DNA of 64,000 nt from a bacterium (GTDB lineage Bacteria > Vulcanimicrobiota > JABDET01), in assembly GCA_021817145.1 (NCBI GenBank), contig JAKAVV010000005.1:1-64000 (forward strand), in the 5' to 3' direction. The stretch's first letter is position 1; the number at the start of each line of letters is the position of its first letter. The position numbers and the translations under genes are program-made. The notes beneath the pieces were generated by a model. The model was not told the DNA's origin, searched no databases, and saw only the letters and a list, made by a program, of their open reading frames with translations. Of this stretch, positions 56,277 to 64,000 are shown in pieces.

Positions 56277-56350
56277 ATGCTGATGCGCAGTAATACATCG
56301 GATTGATTGTTTGTTTAATTGATCTCTGAATACGATGAGATTTACAACGG

Positions 56351-59300
56351 ATGGCTGAATTAGAAGATCTTGAAAGGGGAGCAGCGGTAAAAGGGGTTAT
56401 TCCTGACAGCCTTGTTACGATTGTGGATCTCAAATGGCATGGAGGAGCTGCTGTTGAATTAACGTATAAAGATCAGAATGGGAAATTGGGAAGCCAGCTT
56501 CTTTACAGAGACAATGAACCTGATCTGCAAATTGTTTCCAAAGGAAAACCATGGAGTTTTGATGCTGATGGGTATCTCTTCCGCCTGGTTTTAGAAGCTT
56601 ATCGAATCCGCCTTGCTTATCTTTTCGATCCAGTCCTTGCGGTTCACACATCCCTGGTTGCCCCTCTTCCCCATCAGATAACTGCTGTGTATGGCCAAAT
56701 GCTCCACCGTCAGCCTCTGCGATATCTGCTGGCAGATGATCCAGGGGCAGGGAAAACGATTATGGCAGGGCTTCTGATTAAAGAACTTTTGATCCGAGGG
56801 GATCTCCGAAATTGTCTGGTGGTCTGCCCTGGAAATTTAGTGGAGCAGTGGCAGGATGAATTGTACAGTAAATTTCATCTACCTTTCGAAATTTTGACCA
56901 ATGACAAACTGGAATCAGCCCGAACTGGAAACTGGTTTTATGAGAATCCTCTTGCTGTATGCCGTCTGGATAAATTAAGTCGAAATGAAGATGTTCAGAT
57001 AAAATTGGATCAAGTGGATTGGGATCTGGTGGTTGTGGATGAAGCCCACAAAATGTCAGCCTCTTTTTATGGAGGAGAAATTAAAGAAACAAAACGATAC
57101 AAACTGGGAAAGCTCCTTTCTCGAAATGCTCGCCACTTTCTGCTTTTAACAGCCACTCCACACAATGGGAAAGAAGAAGATTTTCAGCTTTTTCTCGCCC
57201 TTCTGGATGGGGACCGATTTGAAGGGAAATTCAGAGATGGAGTTCATGCAAGCGATGTTTCTGATTTAATGCGGAGATTGGTAAAAGAGCGCCTCTTAAA
57301 ATTTGATGGGAGACCTCTTTTCCCTGAACGGATTGCTTATACGGTTGATTACAAACTTTCGGATCTGGAAGCAGTTCTCTACAAAGAGGTTACAGAGTAT
57401 GTGAAAGAAGAGTTTAACAGAGCCGATTCCCTTGAAAACGATGGAAGAAAAGGAACCGTTGGTTTTGCCCTTACCATTCTTCAGCGCAGGCTGGCTTCTT
57501 CCCCTGAAGCGATTTACCGCTCTCTTGTGAGAAGGAGAGAACGTTTAGAAAAAAGAGTTCGAGAAGAAGAACTGTTGAGAAGAGGAGCAAAAGCGGAATT
57601 TGATCTCATGGAAGATCTCCCTTCTTTAACAGAAGAGGAAGTGGAGGAATTTGAAGATGAATCTCCTGAAGCAGAACTTGCCGATGCTGAAGAGAAGATC
57701 GTGGATCAGGCAACAGCGGCACACACCATTGCTGAACTGAAAACTGAAATCGAGATCTTGAAAAATTTGGAAAATCTAGCATTAAAAGTTCGAAACAGCA
57801 GAACCGATCGAAAATGGGAAGAGCTGTCCAAACTTCTGCAAAATAATCCTGAGATGTATGATGCCCAGGGTCATCGAAGAAAACTGGTCATTTTTACGGA
57901 ACATCGGGATACCCTCTATTATCTTGCAGACCGAATTCGCGGGCTTTTAGGAAGACAAGAAGCCGTTGTTACCATTCACGGCGGAATGGGACGAGAAGAG
58001 AGAAGTAAAGCAAAAGAGCTGTTCCTTCAAGATAAAGATGTGGAAATTCTTGTCGCCACAGATGCTGCTGGGGAAGGGATCAATCTCCAGAGAGCCCATC
58101 TGATGGTCAATTATGATCTTCCCTGGAATCCGAACCGTCTGGAACAGCGGTTTGGTCGGATTCACCGGATTGGACAAACAGAGGTCTGTCACCTCTGGAA
58201 TCTGACAGCCTCAGAAACACGCGAAGGGGAAGTGTATCATCAGCTTTTAAGAAAGTTAGAAGAACAGAAAACTGTTTTTGGAGGGCAGGTTTTTGATATT
58301 CTTGGAAAAATTCGATTTGATAATAAAAGCCTTCGGGATCTTCTGATTGAAGCGGTTCGGTATGGAGAGATGCCTGAAGTAAAAGAGAGATTGAACAAAA
58401 TTGTGAATCAGACGATGGACCGCCAGCATCTTCAAGATCTCATTGAAGAACACGCCCTTACACATGATTCTATGGATGTGTCAGAAGTGAGAAAAATACG
58501 GGAAGAAATGGAAAGAGCTGAAGCCCGCCGCTTACAGCCGCATTTTATCGGATCTTTTTTTATTGAAGCATTCAAACATTTAGGAGGAACGATTCGGGAA
58601 AGGGAAAGCAGCCGTTTCGAAATCACCCATACACCAGGATCCATTCGAAATCGAGACCGAATGATCGGGAACCGTGAACCAATCCTTTCAAAATACGAAA
58701 GGATTACTTTCGAGAAAAATCTTATCTCTGTCTCAGGAAAATCAATCGCAGAATTTATATGTCCAGGTCATCCCCTTCTGGATGCGGCGCTGGATTTAAT
58801 TCTGGAACAGCACAGAAAACTCTTGAAACAGGGGGCTGTTCTTGTGGATCCAGAGGAAGAAACCAAGGAAGTTCGTATGCTGTTCTGTCTGGAACATGGG
58901 ATTCAAGATGCCCGCGCCGATACTCATGGGAACCGCCGCCTGGTTTCTCGCCGCCTCCAATTTGTCGAAATTACGAAAGGGGGAGAAGTTCGAATGGCGG
59001 GATATGCCCCTCATCTGGATTACAGACCCTTACTACAGGAAGAGAAACCTTTGGCAGAACCCCTTCTGGAAGAGGAGTGGATCCAGAAGGAGTTGGAGGA
59101 AAGGGCTTTGTCTTATGCGATTTCAAACCTTGTTCCTGAACATTATCAAGAAGTCAGCAAATGGAAAGAAGCTCTTTTGGTGAAAACCATGCAAGCAGTA
59201 AAAGAAAGACTCACAAAAGAGATTAACTATTGGGATCACCGATCTCAAGAATTAAAACTTCAGGAGCAGGCGGGCAAAATAAATGCTAGACTCAACTCTG

Positions 59301-59878
59301 AAAACGCCCAGAGGAGAGCAGATGAGCTGGCTGCCCGACTCCAGAAACGAATGGCAGAACTGGAACAAGAACGCAAACTCTCCCCTCTCCCTCCCCTGGT
59401 TGTTGGAGGAGCCCTTGTAGTAACAGAAGGGATGCTGAAACAGCTTCGCGTTTCTGGTCAATCTGGGGAGTTTCCCACTCTTTTCGCCAGGGAGAAAAAA
59501 CAGATTGAAAGGGCTGCAGTAGAGGCTGTGATAGAGAGAGAGCGGTCTCTTGGGTTTGAGCCCCTAGACGTCAGCAGAGAAAAACGGGGTTATGATATCG
59601 AATCACGGATTCCAGGAACAGGCAAACTTCGCTTTATTGAAGTAAAAGGTCGGATTTCTGGAGCAGAAACAGTAACGGTTTCTAAAAATGAGATTTTGAC
59701 CTGCCTGAATAAACCGGATGAATTTATTCTTGCTGTTGTGGAAGTGGAAGGGGAAAATCGGCAGGTTCACTACCTGGAACATCCGTTCCACAAGGAGCTG
59801 GATTTTGCTGTTACCAGCGTGAATTATAATATTGAGAAACTTCTGGATTATGCCGAAAGAGTAGAGGACGGAAATTGA
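56351..59878 (+). CDS. SNF2/DEAD-like helicase with C-terminal DUF3883 nuclease-like domain
   Basis: A 1175-residue protein. Walker A is DDPGAGKTIMAG (about 130-141), DEAH-type box DEAHKM (about 233), motif III LTATPHN, and motif VI RFGRIHRIGQ (about 600). C-terminal GYDIESRIPGTG then RFIEVKGR (about 1078-1100) is a PD-(D/E)XK-like core of DUF3883. Similar helicases (DrmD-like) occur in defence systems. It heads the block to 64 kb, where a DUF1156 methylase begins. Confidence 0.88.
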   Translation: MAELEDLERGAAVKGVIPDSLVTIVDLKWHGGAAVELTYKDQNGKLGSQLLYRDNEPDLQIVSKGKPWSFDADGYLFRLVLEAYRIRLAYLFDPVLAVHTSLVAPLPHQITAVYGQMLHRQPLRYLLADDPGAGKTIMAGLLIKELLIRGDLRNCLVVCPGNLVEQWQDELYSKFHLPFEILTNDKLESARTGNWFYENPLAVCRLDKLSRNEDVQIKLDQVDWDLVVVDEAHKMSASFYGGEIKETKRYKLGKLLSRNARHFLLLTATPHNGKEEDFQLFLALLDGDRFEGKFRDGVHASDVSDLMRRLVKERLLKFDGRPLFPERIAYTVDYKLSDLEAVLYKEVTEYVKEEFNRADSLENDGRKGTVGFALTILQRRLASSPEAIYRSLVRRRERLEKRVREEELLRRGAKAEFDLMEDLPSLTEEEVEEFEDESPEAELADAEEKIVDQATAAHTIAELKTEIEILKNLENLALKVRNSRTDRKWEELSKLLQNNPEMYDAQGHRRKLVIFTEHRDTLYYLADRIRGLLGRQEAVVTIHGGMGREERSKAKELFLQDKDVEILVATDAAGEGINLQRAHLMVNYDLPWNPNRLEQRFGRIHRIGQTEVCHLWNLTASETREGEVYHQLLRKLEEQKTVFGGQVFDILGKIRFDNKSLRDLLIEAVRYGEMPEVKERLNKIVNQTMDRQHLQDLIEEHALTHDSMDVSEVRKIREEMERAEARRLQPHFIGSFFIEAFKHLGGTIRERESSRFEITHTPGSIRNRDRMIGNREPILSKYERITFEKNLISVSGKSIAEFICPGHPLLDAALDLILEQHRKLLKQGAVLVDPEEETKEVRMLFCLEHGIQDARADTHGNRRLVSRRLQFVEITKGGEVRMAGYAPHLDYRPLLQEEKPLAEPLLEEEWIQKELEERALSYAISNLVPEHYQEVSKWKEALLVKTMQAVKERLTKEINYWDHRSQELKLQEQAGKINARLNSENAQRRADELAARLQKRMAELEQERKLSPLPPLVVGGALVVTEGMLKQLRVSGQSGEFPTLFAREKKQIERAAVEAVIERERSLGFEPLDVSREKRGYDIESRIPGTGKLRFIEVKGRISGAETVTVSKNEILTCLNKPDEFILAVVEVEGENRQVHYLEHPFHKELDFAVTSVNYNIEKLLDYAERVEDGN

Positions 59879-60153
59879 CTTTGTCCTGCGATTCTCGCAA
59901 ACAGATGATACGTTATCTGGATGGATATTCCGCCGAACGTATGGAAGAAATTGATGCAAGAAAAACTAAACGCCCTCTTGTGAAAAGTTATATGCTTGAG
60001 AGAGTCGGCTCTCAAAACGGAAAGGGGATAACCTCTGTTTTGGGAAGCCTGAATATACATATGCCTTCCCCTCTTTATGCGATAAGCCAGCTTCGATTTC
60101 CTTCTCCTGTTGGACGGGGAGGTCACGATTTTTATTGCCCTGCTTCACAGTGA
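59875..60153 (+). CDS. Possible small protein between helicase and next gene
   Basis: A 92-residue frame starting at TTG 59875 over the helicase stop (TTGA). No known domain, and the last third (SPVGRGG) looks like chance. I call it only to explain the 300-base gap. Confidence 0.2.
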   Translation: MTLSCDSRKQMIRYLDGYSAERMEEIDARKTKRPLVKSYMLERVGSQNGKGITSVLGSLNIHMPSPLYAISQLRFPSPVGRGGHDFYCPASQ

Positions 60154-60182
60154 AGGGGAAAAATCATTGAGTGTAGAAAAAA

Positions 60183-60608
60183 ATGGACTGTATGGGAAAT
60201 GAGATAACTGCGGGGGAGTTTATCAAAATGCTTGTTACTCAAATGTCCAGGGCCAAAATCCAAATGCCATTTCATGAAGAAGAGAAATGGCACCTTTTAT
60301 TTTATAAACTCAAATTGACAGATTCCCCGAATAAACCGCATTTCCTTGGAAAAATTAAATTCGATTGGGATGGCGCTTATCCAAAATCGCGGCAAATCTC
60401 AGAGTTTCTTCAAGCCCTTCACTGGAATGCAAGCCTATCTGCCAGCAACCCCTATTACGAAAAAATTTCCCTGCCGGAAGGCGTGGAAAAACTATGGATA
60501 GAGCATGGTGAAAAGCTAGACCTGCCAACCAAGAAATTCCTAGAAGAGGCGGTGTCCCTTGCAAAAGAGGAGTTCTCACCCGCCGCTCGGAGAGAACGTC
60601 CTGAGTAG
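60183..60608 (+). CDS. Hypothetical protein of the defence block
   Basis: A 141-residue soluble protein with no domain I recognise. It lies tightly between the helicase and the HD protein (8-bp gap), so it is likely part of the same transcript. A short Met alternate start exists at 60192. Confidence 0.6.
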   Translation: MDCMGNEITAGEFIKMLVTQMSRAKIQMPFHEEEKWHLLFYKLKLTDSPNKPHFLGKIKFDWDGAYPKSRQISEFLQALHWNASLSASNPYYEKISLPEGVEKLWIEHGEKLDLPTKKFLEEAVSLAKEEFSPAARRERPE

Positions 60609-60616
60609 AATCGGGA

Positions 60617-62347
60617 ATGGAACTTAAGAATTTCCAGAATCTTTCTGCTCTAATCAAGCAGTTGGACATCTATCTTGCTGAACGACACCGTGAGTTCTTT
60701 GGTAAAAGCGCTTCTCATCCTGTTCTTCCGCTAAAACAGTCCAAAGTTATTCATGACAACCTGTGGGGCACCAATCGCTTTTCTTGGCGCGAGCTAGCGC
60801 TTATCGACACGTCAATTTTCCAAAGGCTGCGGTACATCCATCAGGTGGGATTGGCTTACCTCGTTTATCCGTCCGCCCATCACACACGGTTTGAGCACTG
60901 CCTCGGAGTCTCCATAGTCGCGTCCAGAATCTTTGATTCCCTGCTTCAAAGACAGTCAGGCGAATTTGAAAACATTATTCGCGCCATGGATGGAAACGCC
61001 GAATTTAATCTTAGAATTAAACAACTTAGGCAAGAACTGCGATTAGCGGCGCTTCTTCACGACATTGGACACAGCCTGTTCAGTCACACCTCGGAACAGG
61101 TTTATGAGGAATTACATCTTCTCCGGGCTGCATCAGAAGAACTGTCGGCTTTAATCGGCAAAACAAAAGGAGCAGGGGAAGTCCTTTCGTTTTGCCTCTC
61201 TAGCACGGAGTCAATTCGTTCTGTCTTGACCAGGAGGCAGAAGAATCTAATAGGCGTTACTTCATCAGAGGATTTTAGCGAAGCCATAGACTTCGATAAC
61301 GTCTCATTAATGATTGTCGGACGCTCCAAGCATCCATTCTTGCAATTTCTGGGGGACATAATTTCCTCTGGTTTTGATGCGGACAAGCTTGACTACCTGC
61401 TACGAGACGCCACGTTTGCCGGGCTGCCGCTCCGTTACGATCTGGACAGGTATCTTTACGAGGTGCGGCTGCAGAAGGATATAATCAGTGACGGGGACGG
61501 CTGTTTAAAGAAACTTTACGACGCAACAGGAAGCGGACACATCGACGCATCTCCCGCGGATGGTAACCATCGATTTCCTTACTACGAAACATACAGGCTT
61601 CGCCTTCCGAGAGAAGCAATGAATATAATAGAGCAGGTTGTCATTTGCAAATTCATGCTATTCAGCTACATCTATCATCACCCAAAAGTAAGGGCAGCTG
61701 AGGGGCTTCTGATGAGAACCCTCAGGCAAAAGGTGGATGTATGGAAAAAAGAGGGAAAATCGGAACAAGAAATCCTTCAGGAATTTCTCGAAATGACCGA
61801 CGGATCGTTGCAGAATCTTTCTGGGACACCCCTCATAAAAGATTGTTCGTATCGACTCGTTAACAGGCTCCTCCCGCGAGAAATTTATCGACTTAGCGCG
61901 GCAATCACATCCCATGCCGAAAAACCCCTCCTGGCAGACTTTCTCACGGACCTGCAAGACCATGAGAAGCGGAACGAGCTTGTAAAGAATCTTGAACAGG
62001 AAATCGGTCAAGAGCTGATCAAACTTGACGAAACGCTGCCGAAAGATTGGGAAGAGGCTCTAAGACAGGCTGGCGTGTGGGTTGACATTCCCAAAGCCCC
62101 GGAATTCGAAGATGTGGACAAATTGGTGTTGGGATTACGTAGCGGCGCCCCTGATGTGCAGTTGTTAAGCGTATTTCCAATTGACAGGTGGGTGCAAGCT
62201 TACACGCATTTTCGATATTATGTCCGCATCTTTTCCTTTTCGGAGTACAGGGACGCCGCCATGAACGCCGCAAAAAAAGCGATGCAAAAAATAATTGGCA
62301 TCAAGGGCGATGAGTTCTATGAAACCATCAAAAGAGTAAGAAGTTGA
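60617..62347 (+). CDS. HD-superfamily phosphohydrolase (dGTPase-like)
   Basis: A 576-residue protein. HHTRFEHCLGV (about 94-104) and LLHDIGHSLFSH (about 146-157) are the HD motifs of dGTPase/YdhJ-type enzymes. It may cut nucleotides or nucleic acids. Membership in the defence block suggests a role there. The C-terminal half is unrecognised. Confidence 0.88.
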   Translation: MELKNFQNLSALIKQLDIYLAERHREFFGKSASHPVLPLKQSKVIHDNLWGTNRFSWRELALIDTSIFQRLRYIHQVGLAYLVYPSAHHTRFEHCLGVSIVASRIFDSLLQRQSGEFENIIRAMDGNAEFNLRIKQLRQELRLAALLHDIGHSLFSHTSEQVYEELHLLRAASEELSALIGKTKGAGEVLSFCLSSTESIRSVLTRRQKNLIGVTSSEDFSEAIDFDNVSLMIVGRSKHPFLQFLGDIISSGFDADKLDYLLRDATFAGLPLRYDLDRYLYEVRLQKDIISDGDGCLKKLYDATGSGHIDASPADGNHRFPYYETYRLRLPREAMNIIEQVVICKFMLFSYIYHHPKVRAAEGLLMRTLRQKVDVWKKEGKSEQEILQEFLEMTDGSLQNLSGTPLIKDCSYRLVNRLLPREIYRLSAAITSHAEKPLLADFLTDLQDHEKRNELVKNLEQEIGQELIKLDETLPKDWEEALRQAGVWVDIPKAPEFEDVDKLVLGLRSGAPDVQLLSVFPIDRWVQAYTHFRYYVRIFSFSEYRDAAMNAAKKAMQKIIGIKGDEFYETIKRVRS

Positions 62348-62405
62348 ACAACCGACGTCTGATACCAGATAAAAAGGTCCGGCAGGGAGTACAAGGAAGT
62401 AAGCT

Positions 62406-62573
62406 ATGGTGAAACTTTATAAATGGCCCGACGGCTCCTATCGCTTGACTGATGACCAAGGAAACGATTTAGGGCACCTGGATAGTCTCCCAAAGGGGAA
62501 ACGCAATTTGGAAACTTGGAATTTCATTATAGAGAATGGGCTTTGGAATATTGAGGAAGGCAATGAGGGGTAG
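62406..62573 (+). CDS. Very short protein (55 residues) in the defence block
   Basis: From ATG 62406, after AAGGAAGTAAGCT, to TAG 62571-62573. MVKLYKWPDGSYRLTDDQGN and so on. Unknown. Ribosome site and position favour a real gene. Confidence 0.5.
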   Translation: MVKLYKWPDGSYRLTDDQGNDLGHLDSLPKGKRNLETWNFIIENGLWNIEEGNEG

Positions 62574-62603
62574 CAAACACTTCCCGATGCGCCTGAACAG
62601 GCG

Positions 62604-63818
62604 ATGATTCAAAGCAATGCCATGGAGAAGGATGTGCTGAGATTTTTGCATCTCGATGAGGCCAATCACTCAGAAATAGTTGTAGTGTTACAAGACTATT
62701 TTGGTGCCGTTTCTGCCGATCCAATGACCTGCCAGTTCTACAAATCTGATCTGGCGCAAGCTCTTACAATAAAATTCAATAAGGAAGGAATGATCGCGGC
62801 GGCATTTGCAAATAATTCAATCACAGATGGCGAAATCGCTGCGTTTAGCTCAAGAATCGAAGAGGATTTACTGCGAAACCAAACATCCAAAATCGGACAA
62901 TTTGTAGGTTTCTGCTGGTATAATAAAGTTGATGGCCTTTTTGCTTTTAAGGATCTCTTTCGGATTGTCCCTGTTCCAGAAAACGCGCCGTCACCGAATC
63001 AATTGGTTGCACCTTTTCCCTTTCTGCTCCAAGCAAAATACACCTCAAGTCCAAATGCCTCCGTGGATTACAAAAGAAGAAGGAACATAGCGACTCTTTA
63101 CATTCATTTGCTCAATGTCCTTCTGGAGCCACAGTTTGCCTTACAGGGATCCGGATATACTCGATTTGCCTGGGTGCTGGCAAAAGACTTCAAGGATAAT
63201 TCGGAATTCAGACAAGAAGGATATTATTTTCCGGAACTGTCAGCCACCATTGACTCGTATTCCCTCCCTGGAAATCCGATGAAAGAGGTTCCAGTGAAGG
63301 AATATTATGGCTCTCCTTCGCTAGAACACAAACTCGTGGTGCCAGATAACTTGGAGTCCTCCCTTGAGCTCGCGTTGAACCTGCCCCAAGAGGATAAAAG
63401 AAGGTTTTGCAGGTCATGCAATTGGATCTTTCAAGCACAGAATTCATGGCACTATTCCAGGTCATTATCCTTCATTGCCCACGTAAACGCTGTTGAATCC
63501 CTGATCGTAAATCCGGATAACGCAGTTTGTCCTTGCTGTAATAAACCCAAAACGAGCAGTGTAAAATTATTTAAAAATTTCCTGGATGAAAACGTTCCAG
63601 AGCGTGGACTGGATAAAAAAACAAGAGATAAGATCTACTGGTATCGTTCCCAAATAAACCACGGATTTCATCTGCTGGAAAGTGATATAAGCCTCATTCC
63701 AAGACTAGCGAATGAGGAAGAAGATCTGTGCAGTGAACTCCACATGATCGTTAAGAGAGCGGTAAGGAATTGGCTGTGGAAGCATGATGTTGATCGGGCA
63801 AACGGGGTAAGAGGCTAA
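62604..63818 (+). CDS. HEPN-like protein with a Cys4 motif
   Basis: A 404-residue protein. CRSC and CPCC (about 271, 313) could form a zinc site. The C-terminal RSQINHGFHLL fits the R-x4-6-H motif of Apea-like HEPN RNases. The N-terminal half is unrecognised. A DUF1156 methylase gene follows 3 bases later. Confidence 0.65.
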   Translation: MIQSNAMEKDVLRFLHLDEANHSEIVVVLQDYFGAVSADPMTCQFYKSDLAQALTIKFNKEGMIAAAFANNSITDGEIAAFSSRIEEDLLRNQTSKIGQFVGFCWYNKVDGLFAFKDLFRIVPVPENAPSPNQLVAPFPFLLQAKYTSSPNASVDYKRRRNIATLYIHLLNVLLEPQFALQGSGYTRFAWVLAKDFKDNSEFRQEGYYFPELSATIDSYSLPGNPMKEVPVKEYYGSPSLEHKLVVPDNLESSLELALNLPQEDKRRFCRSCNWIFQAQNSWHYSRSLSFIAHVNAVESLIVNPDNAVCPCCNKPKTSSVKLFKNFLDENVPERGLDKKTRDKIYWYRSQINHGFHLLESDISLIPRLANEEEDLCSELHMIVKRAVRNWLWKHDVDRANGVRG

Positions 63819-63821
63819 TCG

Positions 63822-64000
63822 ATGGATAAAACCGAGAGTCCTCGCAAGAAGCTGATAGAGGTGGCGCTGCCTCTGGAGGTGATTAACCGCGAAGCGGCGC
63901 GGGAGAAGTCGATTCGGCACGGGCATCCGAGCACGCTGCACTTGTGGTGGGCGCGGCGACCCCTGGCGGCGTGTCGGGCGGTGCTGTTTGCGTCACTGGT
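63822..64000 (+). CDS. DUF1156-type DNA methylase (5' end only)
   Basis: The first 59 residues, cut by the window edge: [20 protein letters not shown] and [12 protein letters not shown] are the DUF1156 hallmark of large adenine methylases in DISARM-like and DUF499-linked defence loci. AGAGG precedes the ATG. G+C of these 179 bases is 64% (hand count), far above the genes before. Confidence 0.85.

Follow-up and report, generated by a model that had tools for sequence, protein, structure and literature searches.

The analysed window comprises 64,000 bp, i.e. bases 1-64,000 of a contig of 173,968 bp (C40) from genome G000. At its right end it carries genes for a helicase, an HD protein, a Cys4 protein and a DUF1156 methylase. 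These genes, which the first-pass annotation had described as a co-directional set with short gaps, proved to be genuine open reading frames (ORFs), all of them on the plus strand and close to the positions at which they had been placed. Successive genes are separated by 304 bp behind the helicase gene, and then by 8, about 58, 30, and 3 bp. A defence locus that is cut by the window edge had also been proposed, together with the suggestion to read past position 64,000. The contig runs on beyond this position, and the genes turned out to be the left part of a 16.8-kb Hma island that continues there and includes a DUF499 gene (Table 1). The 55-aa ORF had no relatives in the fetched loci and no PADLOC match. 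The top PADLOC match of the AAA_15/DUF3696 ATPase encoded between hmaB and hmaC was NsnB (177 bits). In another Hma locus (L067) an AAA_15 ATPase gene likewise follows hmaB, and no similarity was found between the PIN partner of that ATPase and the 76-aa ORF of the island.

Table 1. Features of the island in coordinates of contig C40; window and contig share their first base.
Feature	Position	Strand	Basis or remark
16.8-kb island	56278-about 73060 (left 7.7 kb in window, 56278..64000)		absent from same-genus G001
hmaA, SNF2 helicase, 1175 aa	56351-59878	+	PADLOC HmaA; Pfam
92-aa TTG ORF	59875-60153		probably spurious
small partner protein of HD, 141 aa	60183-60608	+	upstream relatives; family profile
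HD phosphohydrolase, predicted SAMHD1-like	60617-62347	+	PF01966 E 6e-8; profile matches
55-aa ORF, may be real	62406-62573	+	read from sequence
Cys4 protein, 404 aa, orphan	62604-63818	+	motifs
hmaB, DUF1156 N6-adenine-type DNA methyltransferase, 945 aa	63822-66659 (63822..64000 inside window)	+	PADLOC HmaB, PF06634
PIN gene	66984-67349		beyond window
RHH (RelB/RHH-type, ribbon-helix-helix) gene	67477-67692		beyond window
76-aa ORF	67950-68180	-	beyond window
AAA_15/DUF3696 ATPase	68177-69556	-	beyond window
hmaC, DUF499 ATPase with N-terminal HEPN, 1106 aa	69703-73023		beyond window

Three proteins of the island matched PADLOC models nearly over the full model lengths, namely HmaA (PDLC00659, 1721 bits, positions 1-1172 of 1176), HmaB (PDLC00660, 1170 bits, positions 8-955 of 967), and HmaC (PDLC00662, 1045 bits, positions 3-941 of 941). 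Because of these matches, the core of the island is assigned by sequence to Hma, an already known type that is also called Type-1 BREX-related. Hma goes back to 2021, when it was described as a candidate system of three genes that occurs in 26 phyla (Payne et al. 2021, PMC8565338), and it was treated as Type-1 BREX-related in a 2026 survey (PMC12839542). The island has in common with Hma the three core proteins, the gene order hmaA-hmaB-hmaC, a helicase with a C-terminal nuclease-type domain, and the DUF1156 and DUF499 domains. In HmaA, Pfam searches revealed SNF2-rel_dom, Helicase_C, and a C-terminal NOV_C/DUF3883 domain (NOV_C 3e-20), the nuclease-like domain bearing a D...EVK motif at the C-terminus. 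HmaB contains PF06634 (DUF1156, 9e-32) and the methyl transfer motifs DPFSGGGS and DPPY. HmaC combines HEPN_Swt1 with DUF499, and both a HEPN motif (R96-x4-H101) and an ATP-binding motif (GGGKT) are present; such a fusion of HEPN and DUF499 occurs in 1370 of 2446 Type-1 taxa (PMC12839542). Unlike in Hma, however, the core of the island is broken twice. The small-HD pair, the 55-aa ORF, and the Cys4 gene separate hmaA from hmaB, and the PIN gene, the RHH gene, and the ATPase gene on the opposite strand lie between hmaB and hmaC. The suspicion that the HD gene and the HEPN-like gene are non-standard members was thus confirmed, as the small-HD pair and the Cys4 gene stand outside the Hma core.

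The first-pass annotation had offered two assignments, a class 1 DISARM-like locus or a DUF1156/DUF499 locus, and only the latter held. If the locus were class 1 DISARM or a variant of it, the helicase would be DrmD and the methylase DrmMI, and the helicase did match the DrmD models of PADLOC (419 bits) and NCBIfam (366 bits), as distant SNF2 relatives do. However, the NCBIfam score is below the cut-off of 610, far less than the same helicase scored against HmaA, and none of the genes drmA, drmB, and drmC was found on the island as far as pcrA. Because drmABC are missing and HmaC is present, DISARM was rejected, and we give it next to no chance. BREX membership was also discarded, as there is no PglZ among the scanned island proteins. 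The same applied to the PLD-helicase type of DUF1156/DUF499 systems (NCBIfam NF042962-NF042964), for which 166, 129, and 172 bits were obtained versus cut-offs of 1200, 1000, and 1100.

The borders of the island became apparent from a second genome of the same genus (G001). On its contig C8, the gene for a SPOR protein ends at 242011 and pcrA ends at 242040, about 30 bp apart, whereas about 16.8 kb separates the ends of the same two flanking genes on C40 (about 56277 and 73064). As the two genes are nearly adjacent in G001, the 16.8-kb block is an insertion. Over most of its length the block has a higher G+C content than the remaining window. Neither an integrase nor a transposase was noticed among the genes of the island. 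The island is present here and absent in G001, and it presumably arrived in one step. With an empty site known from the sister species, the whole island lends itself to being tested as a single transferable unit in a laboratory host.

The HD protein was matched by the profiles of PDB entry 2hek (E 2e-48) and of SAMHD1 (E 2e-43). In alignments with both, the metal- and substrate-binding motifs were intact (H94, H148-D149, D256-K257, Y260, and D264). The protein is therefore predicted to be a SAMHD1-like dNTPase, although its substrate could be other than dNTPs. In contrast to SAMHD1, it is bacterial, does not contain a SAM domain, and is encoded in a two-gene pair, and some of its relatives bear a C-terminal nuclease-like extension. 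This extension was observed in paired HD proteins of about 800-830 aa (L029, L031, L032, and L125); it contains GGxxD...ENK, resembles PD-(D/E)XK nucleases, and has no Pfam match. A scan with one genome per species yielded 80 loci with HD relatives, the best of which are 50-58% identical and stem from Acidobacteria.

The 141-aa protein is encoded directly upstream of the HD gene, and relatives with 39-46% identity are found at the same place in the four closest loci (L079, L080, L081, and L082). When 1966 ORFs were searched with a family profile, 62 members were detected, of which 57 immediately precede an HD gene; as the ORFs came from loci chosen by their HD genes and the profile was seeded with upstream proteins, the informative result is that one family occupies one position. 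Seen from the other side, 57 of the 92 HD proteins in the fetched loci have the small partner directly upstream. Among the 83 HD proteins placed in a tree, the 56 paired ones were all on one side (64 rows, branch support 99), and this clustering of the paired label was equalled in none of 500 shuffles. The other side contains unpaired HDs and HDs whose small neighbour is of another kind and bears a GPYS motif. An ordinary housekeeping gene of COG1078 was considered for the HD protein, and this reading was dropped because the paired HDs form a separate cluster. By sequence and gene order, the small protein and the HD protein are a conserved two-gene pair of many bacterial phyla and some archaea. 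Four of the HD relatives on plasmids also have a small gene just upstream, and small-HD pairs on plasmids occur beside defence-type genes, i.e. genes for a CBASS-type nucleotidyltransferase/ThiF or for restriction or HNH endonucleases. A lack of relationship between the small protein and its plasmid counterparts was considered as well (hmmsearch -0.3 bits, four plasmid sequences); however, that profile was too narrow, and a broader one recovered the family.

The small partner has no family in Pfam, NCBIfam, or PADLOC. Its AlphaFold2 model (pLDDT 87) is mostly helical with short strands, and fold searches returned nothing significant, the best match being a chain of the DarTG complex (foldseek E 0.36). 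In the comparison with Panacea/DUF4065-like antitoxins, no Pfam match of the small partner was obtained, foldseek gave nothing better than the E value of 0.36 just mentioned, and hhalign pointed only to the unnamed GPYS-motif family (P 0.0012, probability 19%). The latter value provides a lead that the two families of small partners are perhaps distantly related. The HDs of this sister set (L138, L146, L150, L151, L153, and L154) have their small neighbour usually downstream; its motif is of the [YF]GPYS type, and it belongs to no Pfam family.

For the pair as a whole, no model was found in PADLOC 2.0.0, including the HEC and PDC models, besides a weak match of the HD protein to the dGTPase model (2e-6). 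As far as Pfam, NCBIfam, and PADLOC 2.0.0 go, the pair is uncatalogued. The possibility of a variant or new system, raised by the first-pass annotation, failed for the core, which had been named in 2021; the small-HD pair and the orphan Cys4 gene are the parts that the libraries searched do not catalogue. Overall, the earlier reading of the locus was partly supported.

The pair was also found beside other DUF1156/DUF499 loci. Contig C33 of the same genome contains a second, divergent small-HD pair, whose HD protein is 28% identical to that of the window; no more than about 0.7 kb separates it from a remnant of an hmaB 3' end. In this region (C33 59147-61550, L064:9148-11551), the hmaB 3' end is decayed and has one in-frame TAA, and the pair follows it near the contig end. 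In L098, a Hydrogenedentota MAG and thus from an unrelated phylum, the pair lies between the DUF499 and DUF1156 genes. The HDs of C33 and L098 share one clade of eight rows in the tree, apart from the window HD; therefore, at least two separate associations with DUF1156/DUF499 loci have occurred. The other Hma or Hma-like loci that were read in the phylum, several of which are cut by contig ends, are without the HD pair, and most pairs elsewhere are solitary among ordinary genes, e.g. gyrB or dnaN. From this distribution, the pair appears to be a passenger cassette, one that comes to be embedded in such loci, and not a component of Hma. Such an arrangement has a precedent in the Hma-embedded candidates (HEC), which PMC12111858 and PMC12988326 describe, after a 2024 preprint of Payne et al., as foreign modules within Hma loci. 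On that description, the position of the pair between Hma genes resembles that of the HEC modules, which are small defence modules as well; in contrast to them, neither the pair nor the Cys4 protein matches any HEC or PDC model of PADLOC 2.0.0.

Two alternatives to a passenger with a role in defence have to be weighed. The HD protein, the small protein, and the Cys4 protein might be working parts of a new Hma subtype, in which the Hma complex triggers nucleotide depletion and RNA cutting. Their genes are located within the operon in the same orientation and are separated by short gaps, the Cys4 gene ends 3 bp before hmaB, and in three cases the pair adjoins DUF1156/DUF499 genes, with HDs from two separate branches of the tree. 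However, all three genes are missing from other Hma loci of the phylum, the pair occurs without Hma in most loci, and the Cys4 gene had no relatives in any collection searched, so that we regard a new subtype as improbable. The second alternative, to which we assign a low but appreciably higher probability, is that the pair is a selfish toxin-antitoxin or metabolic dNTPase pair that came into the island by chance and plays no part in defence. The many solitary copies near housekeeping genes such as gyrB and dnaN would fit this, as would a loose resemblance of the small partner to antitoxin-type regulators, but not the three occurrences in or beside Hma/DUF499 loci and the defence-type neighbours on plasmids. 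The embedded pair is a plausible candidate for a new defence cassette.

The Cys4 protein contains the cysteine pairs C269/C272 and C309/C312 as well as R348-x4-H353. Searches of the genomes of the phylum, plasmids, phages, viral contigs, and genome contigs yielded no relatives, and no Pfam family (HEPN included), PADLOC family, or PDB family was matched. A model built without relatives reached a pLDDT of 35. On the basis of its motifs, the protein is possibly a HEPN-like RNase.

Taken together, we consider it highly probable that the locus is a restriction-like Hma (Type-1 BREX-related) island with embedded extra defence cassettes, which would work as follows; all activities, regulation by the small protein, and protection against phages as such are what we infer. 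The methylase HmaB would mark self DNA, the DUF499 ATPase HmaC would assemble on unmarked foreign DNA, and the SNF2 helicase-nuclease HmaA would degrade it. If DNA degradation fails, the HEPN domain of HmaC would cut RNA. A core with methylation-guided restriction and a helicase-nuclease effector is suggested by the domains found here and by the restriction-like mechanism that was proposed for Type-1 BREX-related systems (PMC12839542). The HD enzyme, predicted to be a SAMHD1-like dNTPase, would deplete the dNTPs that are needed for phage replication, and the 141-aa partner would keep it inactive, or act as a sensor, until infection. The Cys4 protein would perhaps be an additional RNase.

In Clover (CloA dGTPase and CloB nucleotidyltransferase; PMC12265719), an HD-domain dNTPase is also encoded together with a restraining partner, and by this analogy the pair might act as an additional layer that depletes nucleotides and brings its own brake. 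In contrast to Clover, the partner is a protein of 141 aa and no nucleotidyltransferase, and the HD protein is matched by SAMHD1-type structures and only weakly by the dGTPase model. A more far-reaching view, which we put forward tentatively and hold to be somewhat less than an even bet, is that the pair is a widespread uncatalogued anti-phage module, i.e. a SAMHD1-like dNTPase checked or triggered by its partner, that travels by itself, on plasmids, and within systems of the Hma type. If this is true, a restriction-like system and nucleotide starvation would be two layers within one operon. With its core, the island adds an Hma locus to those already known. Its value lies in the embedded pair with its unnamed conserved partner family, which makes it testable how bacterial dNTPases stay silent until infection.

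Two further loci of the same genome were observed. Contig C10 (44000-63000, L007) contains a second, divergent DUF499/DUF1156/helicase locus (HmaA 554, HmaB 431, and HmaC 408 bits), in which the known pair HEC-01A/HEC-01B is embedded; the genes of another OLD-type ATPase and of a PDC-S28 protein also lie within it. On C40 81219-85499 (L006:6219-10499), about 6-8 kb beyond pcrA, three consecutive genes encode a DNA methyltransferase, a protein of 241 aa without assignment, and a type II-associated helicase, and are likely a further restriction-modification cluster.
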